A stretch of DNA of 33,340 nt from Patescibacteria group bacterium. GTDB taxonomy: Bacteria > Patescibacteriota > Minisyncoccia > Phycocordibacterales > UBA918. Location of the stretch: the NCBI GenBank assembly GCA_015485575.1, contig WFTF01000001.1, positions 1-33,340 on the forward strand, read 5' to 3'. The number at the start of each line of letters is the position of its first letter. Within the stretch, counting starts at the first letter, position 1. The translations under genes and the position numbers were made by a program. The notes under the pieces are model-generated. The model was not told the DNA's origin and did not search any database. It saw nothing but the letters and a program-made list of their open reading frames with translations. Positions 17,123 to 19,400 of the stretch are shown here, one piece after another.

Positions 17123-17452
17123 TTATGCCGAAGCTTTGGCAGCGCGAGCTGCTGCAATCTCCGCTTCTTTTTTCTTCTGGTCAAGTTCCTTCTGCATCTT
17201 ACCTCCATGTCGGTAAAACTTCTTTGTTGGTGAAAATTCACCAAGGCGATGACCGACCATATCTTCGGTAACGAGTACCTCAATATGATCCTTCCCGTTA
17301 TGGACACCAAAGGTGAAGCCGACCATTTCCGGTGAAATCATCGATGCACGAGCCCATGTTCTGATTACTCCTGTTTCCTGCGGCTTTTTGCCGGCAATTT
17401 TTTTCAGAAGTTTCTCATCAACATACGGTCCTTTATATAGTGATCGTGACAT
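17123..17452 (-). CDS. rpsS: Ribosomal protein uS19
   Basis: The 109-residue product has the uS19 pattern [39 protein letters not shown] and [19 protein letters not shown]. It sits in the 30S head. An Ala/Lys-rich tail of about 20 residues ([20 protein letters not shown]) extends the usual ~92. It is the first gene after the rplB-rpsS interruption, 34 nt after a terminator-like hairpin that may attenuate it. Confidence 0.96.
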
Positions 17453-17484: not shown

Positions 17485-17505
17485 AAAAAACCGATAAACG
17501 GTTTT
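17485..17505 (-). terminator. Terminator or attenuator ahead of rpsS
   Basis: On the minus strand AAAACCG and CGGTTTT pair around a 5-nt loop and lead into six T residues. It would end the structured RNA that starts near 17816. Because rpsS starts 33 nt later it could also work as an attenuator. Confidence 0.7.
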
Positions 17506-17821
17506 AGCCGCATAGTTTAATAATTATTCTGCCCCCGATGCAGCTCACACGTATGTGTGACCATCGGTTCGTGTAACGGTATGTTGTTTGAGATTGCCCT
17601 GCCAGGGGCGAATCACGAACAGAGCCAAAGTTTGAGCACAGTAACGGTTGAATGAAACTGCTTCGCATCGTCGTCTTTAAAAATAAGGCTGCATTTCCTT
17701 TTCTGCTCGTCACTGAATGTATATTCAGTTCCTCTCATTAAAAGAAATTCGCTCTTATTTTTAAAAACTTTTGATTGCGATCAAACTTCGCCCCTGTTCT
17801 TGAACGAGGTTAGAACGGGGC
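17487..17821 (-). ncRNA. Candidate structured RNA or rpsS leader
   Basis: Between a near-consensus minus-strand promoter and a terminator lie many exact inverted repeats. From the 5' side of the RNA they are: GCCCC-GTTCT/AGAAC-GGGGC (17790-17821), TTTGAT/ATCAAA (17770-17785), a long rod with a 12-bp base (17676-17687 with 17754-17765), a second stem with one bulge and an ACTGAAT/ATTCAGT tip (17712-17729), CACGAAC/GTTCGTG (17567-17620) enclosing CCCT/AGGG, and a nested CCGATG-TCACAC/GTGTGA-CATCGG (17535-17567). No motif of RNase P RNA, tmRNA or SRP RNA was recognised. It could be a free RNA or a leader that senses a ribosomal protein. Confidence 0.55.
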
Positions 17822-17822
17822 A

Positions 17823-17851
17823 ATAATACGGGAAAGAGGAAGATAAGTCAA
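17823..17851 (-). promoter_or_regulatory. Strong promoter for the structured RNA and rpsS block
   Basis: On the minus strand TTGACT (17851-17846) and TATTAT (17828-17823) are separated by exactly 17 nt. This is among the best promoter matches in the window. It lies back to back with the plus-strand promoter at 17863. Confidence 0.72.
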
Positions 17852-18390: not shown

Positions 18391-18711
18391 ATGGCAAAAC
18401 CCCGCGGCAATGAACACACTACTCTGACCGAAACCGCACAAGAGGTGGTTCGGGTGCTTGCGCGTATGCCCGGGGTGAAAATGATTGCCCCGGGTGAAAT
18501 AAAAACAAACAGCAAAAAAGGGTCGGGAAACCGTTTTGTCACCGCTGTATATACCACCGCCGGCATGGAACTTTTGATCTCGGGACAAAGTGTGCAAAAG
18601 GTGGCGGTACACACCACCACAGACCCGCACGAGCTGTTTTTACAGCTGCAGACACACAAAAAACTAAAGCATTTCCATTTCAAAACCCGTGAGCGCAAAC
18701 CGGGGATATAA
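18391..18711 (+). CDS. DUF2103-like putative metal-binding protein
   Basis: The 106-residue product has the order seen in DUF2103 proteins: a polar N-terminus with His and Thr (GNEHTTLTETAQEVVRVLAR), a hydrophobic strand and PG turn (MPGVKMIAPGEIK), a basic loop, then VTAVYTTAGMELLISGQSVQ and a final TTTDPHEL. DUF2103 proteins are described as predicted metal binders of unknown role. The C-terminal end is basic (KLKHFHFKTRERKPG). It is a plus-strand gene placed between rplB and rpsS, probably acquired or moved there. The family match is from memory of the pattern. Confidence 0.55.
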   Translation: MAKPRGNEHTTLTETAQEVVRVLARMPGVKMIAPGEIKTNSKKGSGNRFVTAVYTTAGMELLISGQSVQKVAVHTTTDPHELFLQLQTHKKLKHFHFKTRERKPGI

Positions 18712-18785: not shown

Positions 18786-18800
18786 GCGATATATCGAAAT
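18786..18800 (+). repeat. CGATATATCG site 3
   Basis: GCGATATATCGAAAT is one of five copies of this motif in the two arrays, always in the same orientation with a trailing GAAA. Confidence 0.65.
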
Positions 18801-18910
18801 ATGCATAAAAATAGCATTGTGTACCGTGGTGTGCATATACACAATGCAAGTGTATACACTGTCGCTACGCCAAGTGTGTAGGACTTTCTGCAACAGAACT
18901 GGTAAATAGT

Positions 18911-18925
18911 GCGATATATCGAAAT
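18911..18925 (+). repeat. CGATATATCG site 4
   Basis: GCGATATATCGAAAT with a preceding AAATAGT matches the copy at 13491 over about 20 nt, including sequence outside the palindrome. Confidence 0.65.
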
Positions 18926-18980
18926 AAAAACCCCGCATCATCAACACACGGTAGAAGCAGTCTTCGTGTATACCGTATGT

Positions 18981-18994
18981 CGATATATCGAAAT
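18981..18994 (+). repeat. CGATATATCG site 5
   Basis: CGATATATCGAAAT lies 70 nt after site 4 in the same orientation. Confidence 0.6.
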
Positions 18995-19072
18995 ACATAA
19001 ATCACTGTACGCAATGTGTATACGATATCCTCCTATGCCATGGTTTGGGGTATGTGTGAACATACCAAACTA

Positions 19073-19103
19073 GCAACCTAGGTCATTCAATGACCTGGGT
19101 TGC
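19073..19103. repeat. GGTCATT palindrome, copy 3
   Basis: GCAACCTAGGTCATT and AATGACCTGGGTTGC pair around a single C. The only non-Watson-Crick pair would be U-G in plus-strand RNA and A-C in minus-strand RNA. Confidence 0.65.
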
Positions 19104-19153
19104 AAACATCCCGCCTCCTTCGTTTGTTATTCTTTCCCCCATCAGTCTGCCTG

Positions 19154-19207
19154 GGCAAAAGGTCGCCTGTGACGCAGGGCAGCTGCTGGTACCTTTTTCG
19201 TCACAGG
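19154..19207. repeat. Rearranged folded element C'
   Basis: The first 25 nt (19154-19178) are identical to the start of element C. Two stems interleave: AAAAGGT (19157-19163) with ACCTTTT (19191-19197), and CCTGTGACG (19166-19174) with CGTCACAGG (19199-19207). They cannot both form as simple nested hairpins, so they could be a pseudoknot, alternative folds or the product of a rearrangement. Confidence 0.6.
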
Positions 19208-19258
19208 TTACTAACTACAACTGTTCGCTCCGCTCCAGTTCTAGTAAGTACCTGCGAC

Positions 19259-19311
19259 CCCGGCTCGCGGTTCGCAGCCCCAGGGAAGGGCTGCTCACAA
19301 CGCTCCGCCTT
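19259..19311 (+). repeat. 53-nt linker repeat, copy 2
   Basis: It differs from 13757-13809 at two positions, both in the 7-nt hairpin loop; the stem GCAGCCC/GGGCTGC is unchanged. It ends where element C begins. Confidence 0.8.
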
Positions 19312-19400
19312 GGCAAAAGGTCGCCTGTGACGCAGGTCACAGGCTAAAAGTAAAAAGGTTCACGCTGCCGCATGAACCTTTTTACTTTTACCTTTTGCCA
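19311..19400. repeat. Folded element C, overlapping the end of rplB
   Basis: The outer stem is TGGCAAAAGG (19311-19320) with CCTTTTGCCA (19391-19400). Hairpin 1 is GCCTGTGAC-GCAG-GTCACAGGC (19323-19344). Hairpin 2 is an 18-bp perfect stem (19345-19362 with 19373-19390). The right outer arm is the last codons of rplB and hairpin 2 starts inside its stop codon. Hairpin 2 is U-rich on the minus strand and may also terminate rplB transcription. Confidence 0.8.

Follow-up and report, generated by a model that had tools for sequence, protein, structure and literature searches.

The window, which is the whole 33,340-nt stretch of Patescibacteria DNA analysed here, contains on its minus strand the 5′ untranslated leader of the operon that begins with rpsS, rplV and rpsC, the second half of a split S10-spc cluster. 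With moderate confidence, we propose that this leader acts in cis, is probably ribosomal-protein-sensing and carries one domesticated palindrome of MITE-like nature.

Gene order and layout of the leader

The source genome of the window is ∼0.8 Mb in size. The order of the genes on the minus strand is tuf, rpsJ, rplC, rplD, rplW and rplB, followed by one ∼1.9-kb interruption and then by rpsS, rplV, rpsC and the rest of the S10-spc cluster; rplB, rpsS and rplV were confirmed by Pfam, the other names of the cluster genes were read from the translations. The cluster is split after rplB in the relatives too, with gaps of 0.3 to 3.8 kb among the stretches that contain both rplB and rpsS. Upstream of rpsS, the split of the window contains one DUF2103 gene (PF09876, E 2.3e-8) at 18391-18711 on the plus strand, and a DUF2103 gene is also located upstream of rpsS in many family genomes. 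The interruption after rplB contains, at 18790-19400, three CGATATATCG palindromes and two copies of one CTGCGTCACAGGCGACCTTTTGCC piece, as well as one strong terminator-like inverted repeat at 19341-19393. The leader and its first gene have the following features.

17823-17851, minus strand: sigma-70-type promoter TTGACT-17-TATTAT (TTGACT at 17851-17846, TATTAT at 17828-17823); at the same place in 36 family genomes, then GTTC
17806-17816, minus strand: 5′ motif GUUCUAACCUC near the inferred transcription start; a GUUCC/U-AACCUC-like motif occupies this position in nearly all leaders of the family
17616-17801, minus strand: rod, a 186-nt copy of one dispersed ∼190-nt palindromic element with three-way junction; 12-bp base, R2 model match at 17661-17781
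17592-17614, minus strand: P1 hairpin with CUGGCA hexaloop; loop motif in a stem of at least 4 pairs in 16/36 leaders
17574-17579, minus strand: invariant CCGUUA (36/36 leaders), the P2 hairpin loop in relatives; unpaired in the window
17535-17567, minus strand: lineage-specific hairpin CCGATG...CATCGG, the nested stem of the earlier note; fold -13.8 kcal/mol, not conserved in the sister genome G041
17485-17505, minus strand: terminator-like hairpin AAAACCG-UUUAU-CGGUUUU ending in six U; 7 bp, -6.1 kcal/mol, ends 32 nt before the rpsS ATG
17123-17452, minus strand: rpsS (ribosomal protein S19), first gene of the downstream operon; Pfam PF00203, E 6.7e-33, ATG at 17452

The earlier note, made from the window alone, had described this region as dense in inverted repeats. 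Both the rod and the CCGATG/CATCGG stem (17567-17535) are present, and the fold goes far beyond dinucleotide shuffles: a 346-nt region of the minus strand folds with -115.5 kcal/mol (z -6.3), and the z value of its plus strand is -4.8. The promoter of that note is also present at 17851-17823 and is kept in the relatives. The promoter scan of the window is by itself at chance level (3 found vs 2.6 expected); the promoter rises above chance because it is conserved at the equivalent place in the relatives. Different from the promoter, the terminator-like hairpin has no support from conservation. It is present just before rpsS, 32 nt rather than 33 nt from the ATG, and was not found in the leaders of G041 or the related G021; the terminator scan of the window is at chance level as well (3 found vs 2.6 expected).

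A conserved leader in the family

The DNA upstream of rpsS was read in 42 family loci, two of which were cut off by contig ends. Among the 40 family genomes with usable upstream DNA, 38 contain the leader. In 36, TTGAC...TAnnnT (or a close form) is directly followed by GTTC or GTTG; two more (G005 and G006) have GTTC and CCGTTA with a weaker promoter, and the remaining two (G007 and G010) have one short hairpin only, like the other families of the order. The conserved components are the promoter, the 5′ motif GUUCYAACCUC, the CUGGCA-loop hairpin and the invariant CCGUUA, and the window's leader has retained the promoter, the 5′ motif as GUUCUAACCUC, the P1 hairpin with CUGGCA in its loop, and CCGUUA. 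All 36 pattern-extracted leaders contain CCGUUA, compared to 1.4 expected in shuffles and 1/35 upstream controls. As a hairpin loop with at least 4 closing pairs, CUGGCA, CUAUCUA or a close variant was found in 16/36 leaders, compared to 0.16 in shuffles and 0/35 upstream controls. Most of the leaders are without obvious terminator. Outside the family, CCGUUA is missing from the rpsS leaders of the order, which show a promoter and a short hairpin. In these other families (L101-L128), a promoter of its own often stands before rpsS, and a short AGCUC...GAGCUUUU-like hairpin comes next, perhaps representing a more ancient version of the leader.

In 24 canonical leaders, CCGUUA forms the apical loop of one long hairpin, P2. 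Ten of the 18 P2 pairs were changed on both sides, and 91% of the P2 cells are paired, compared to 46-65% when the partner was slid. The covariation score of P2 is 0.418 vs 0.251 in shuffles, which never attain it, and part of this covariation may reflect relatedness. The P2 model matched one locus per genome in 27 of the 49 family genomes at about E <= 1e-9, and the matches precede rpsS wherever rpsS could be located; such searches could miss reduced P2 forms, including the window's own. No credible P2 match was identified among the class genomes sampled outside the family, where stricter filters were used and weak matches were lost. One class-level match, in G207, is located among pilin-like genes and was taken as chance.

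The window's genome (G000) forms one clade with G041, G021, G025, G018, G043 and G022 in the tree, in which G000 and G041 are sisters (support 0.99). The long P2 stem is reduced or lost in this clade and CCGUUA is retained; in the window, it lies outside any stable stem. The P2 stem of this clade shrank and was lost while CCGUUA persisted.

The conservation of base pairs that the earlier note had asked for in relatives was found for P2 and for the stems of the rod, both of which covary; it was not found for the CCGATG...CATCGG stem, which G041 does not share. The Rfam search that it proposed gave no match to any known RNA class: at the gathering threshold, neither the window nor the leader and rod relatives in 19 loci had a match (the sole hit among these loci is one tRNA in L154, away from leader and rod), and at a permissive threshold there was only weak miRNA-type noise. 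Its failure to find hallmarks of RNase P RNA or tmRNA is also borne out. No tRNA or tmRNA was found in the window, and RF00010 matches elsewhere in the genome (contig C50, E 2.2e-20, below the curated cut-off), so that RNase P RNA was rejected as a candidate. For the small bacterial SRP RNA (RF00169), five family genomes (G000, G041, G047, G016 and G019) gave no match, and 11/14 control genomes did; the lack of a match in the family genomes does not speak for the leader being SRP RNA. When a second copy of the leader was searched for in the window's genome, only the rod's own palindrome matched, and there was no match in the phage and plasmid collections or IMG/VR. Being a structured RNA that is kept in the 5′ UTR of genes for ribosomal proteins, the leader is a candidate member of the ribosomal-protein leader class.

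The rod, a dispersed palindromic element

The rod, the main structural evidence of the earlier note, is no part of the conserved leader. It is an inserted dispersed element that is absent from the leaders of G021 and all other relatives read except G041. One rod model, R2, was built from an alignment of 21 copies from which the window and G041 were left out; it scores the window with 76.9 bits (E 2.7e-20) and G041 with 70.9 bits. Two-sided changes are present in 22 of the 40 pairs of the alignment, and 96% of its cells are paired, compared to 35-46% when slid. R2 matches were found in 22/384 class genomes, with up to seven per genome, and the weakest of them may be chance. A pattern scan of 85,462 genomes identified 27 rod-like stretches. 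Most of them, with cores 119-122 nt long, are from Patescibacteria, some genomes of which hold more than one copy; five stretches come from outside Patescibacteria and look like chance. Among the named records with a copy of the element, most belong to Parcubacteria-type Patescibacteria. The G007 rod sits between glycosyltransferase-like genes, with exactly equal 115-nt spacing between the conserved ends. The G016 rod, with matching core length and near-perfect terminal repeats, is located between one promoter-like site and the 16S rRNA gene (L129, around 1500); such a 16S-leader position is a single case and no pattern. The rod has no family in Rfam.

MITEs and the palindromic intergenic repeats of bacteria are short, non-coding and multi-copy, and they have terminal inverted repeats. 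The rod is likewise short, non-coding and multi-copy, with near-perfect terminal inverted repeats; TA or TTA, a possible target-site duplication, flanks both sides of many copies, not all, and the orientation to the neighbouring genes is not fixed. From these sequence features, we read the rod as a MITE-like dispersed palindrome. Different from MITEs, it has conserved internal-loop letters, a fixed 119-122-nt core and two-sided covariation of its stems; its terminal repeats differ between the copies of one genome, yet both ends of each copy match. No autonomous partner was seen in G088, the one genome searched by terminal repeat, where the inverted pairs are 74-190 bp apart and none spans a transposase-sized gap. 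In contig C1 of this genome, inverted pairs of the terminal repeat AGAGCCTGTTNAAAATCTC at 185-190 bp correspond to rods; pairs 163 bp and 74 bp apart form smaller palindromes with the same ends. The low G-U content of dispersed rods (2.7% of the pairs in their cores, compared to 15% of those in leader P2) was set aside as proof of selection at the DNA level, because the window's own rod has 5/67 G-U pairs.

The rod of G041 is at the same place as that of the window, whereas the G021 leader passes straight from the 5′ motif to P1, and no other relative read has the rod in its leader. The rod entered the leader between 5′ motif and P1 in an ancestor shared by G041 and the species of the window. 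Since its dispersed and palindromic nature, the lack of fixed orientation to neighbouring genes and its absence from all other leaders read would suit a neutral leftover of one mobile element, the rod might have no function, and only the promoter and P1/CCGUUA would matter. However, the rods of G000 and G041 are 88% identical (164/186) with 64/67 pairs kept, compared to 48% identity (116/243) at the fourfold sites of rpsS, rplV and rplB. An insertion this old would be expected to have decayed if it were neutral, which argues for constraint since the insertion; we regard a neutral rod as unlikely, and this one species pair indicates that the rod is now kept by selection.

Proposed control of the operon and its significance

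Ribosomal-protein operons are commonly controlled by an operon-encoded protein that binds to the leader; the S10 operon leader of Escherichia coli is a long structured 5′ UTR with one possible terminator and is controlled by the ribosomal protein uL4, and the spc operon is controlled by uS8 with a cis RNA element as the target (PMC10931766). The window's leader resembles the E. coli S10 leader: it, too, is a long structured 5′ UTR that precedes genes of this cluster and may contain a terminator. However, the E. coli leader precedes rpsJ, whereas the window's leader precedes rpsS, has other hairpins and loops and has no match in Rfam. With the spc/uS8 system, it shares genes of the same downstream cluster and a cis RNA element. 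The uS8 site mimics helix 21 of 16S rRNA; different from this, CCGUUA and CUGGCA of the window's family occupy the loops of two distinct hairpins, and inspection by eye revealed nothing like a helix-21 core. A literature search on riboswitches and the control of ribosomal-protein genes in Patescibacteria found no description.

The region might also be an ordinary 5′ UTR: a split operon needs a promoter, the hairpins would merely protect the mRNA without any ligand, and other families of the order have the rpsS promoter with a short hairpin only. This is improbable in our opinion, as the loop letters are invariant (CCGUUA in 36/36; CUGGCA or CUAUCUA) on changing stems, a combination that points to specific recognition.

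The earlier note had left open a new ncRNA or a leader with controlled termination. A stand-alone small RNA ending at the hairpin 17485-17505 and acting in trans would be a plausible 330-nt transcript, given the promoter, the strong fold and the terminator-like hairpin. However, the P2 part is found at a single locus per genome, ahead of rpsS in every case in which rpsS could be placed, the end hairpin was not seen in G041 or G021 and does not exceed chance in the scan, we saw no further conserved promoter ahead of rpsS, and the RNase P RNA gene of the genome is elsewhere. We consider such an RNA very unlikely. The attenuated leader stands in part: the structured leader before rpsS is borne out by the conserved promoter, the loop motifs and the covarying P2, but its terminator-like hairpin is without conservation. 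That the leader senses free 16S rRNA is highly improbable: a short motif search against 16S/23S of relatives established no mimic of an rRNA site and gave, as a weak lead, one complementary 9-mer only (P2 GCCGUUACC, whose reverse complement GGUAACGGC belongs to the helix 11/12 region of 16S rRNA, exact in the G016 16S gene), a match of 9 bases to two rRNAs in either orientation is expected by chance a few percent of the time by rough estimate, and the letters next to CCGUUA differ among the leaders.

We return to the cis-acting leader. Its layout fits control by a protein of the operon itself, as is common in ribosomal-protein operons elsewhere, and we infer cis control of the operon from the conserved cis element, the covarying hairpin and the invariant loops. 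One downstream-encoded ribosomal protein would most likely bind to the CCGUUA/P1 part, and the bound protein would lower translation or elongation, in the manner of other leaders of this class. The rod would probably be a stable spacer, or a processing or stability element. The last hairpin may add partial attenuation, in the window's species only.

The leader is a family-wide RNA with invariant loops that are open to direct test, and the rod is a structured repeat family new to Rfam. As a tentative further reading, an undescribed, widespread and structured mobile element of Patescibacteria, which may move by copying one arm onto the other, could have been exapted as a working regulatory RNA domain of the ribosomal-protein leader. 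If true, a selfish palindrome became an RNA domain controlling a large block of ribosomal-protein genes. Captured under selection within an essential operon, the rod would clearly exemplify, for bacteria, how a mobile palindrome becomes part of a regulatory RNA.
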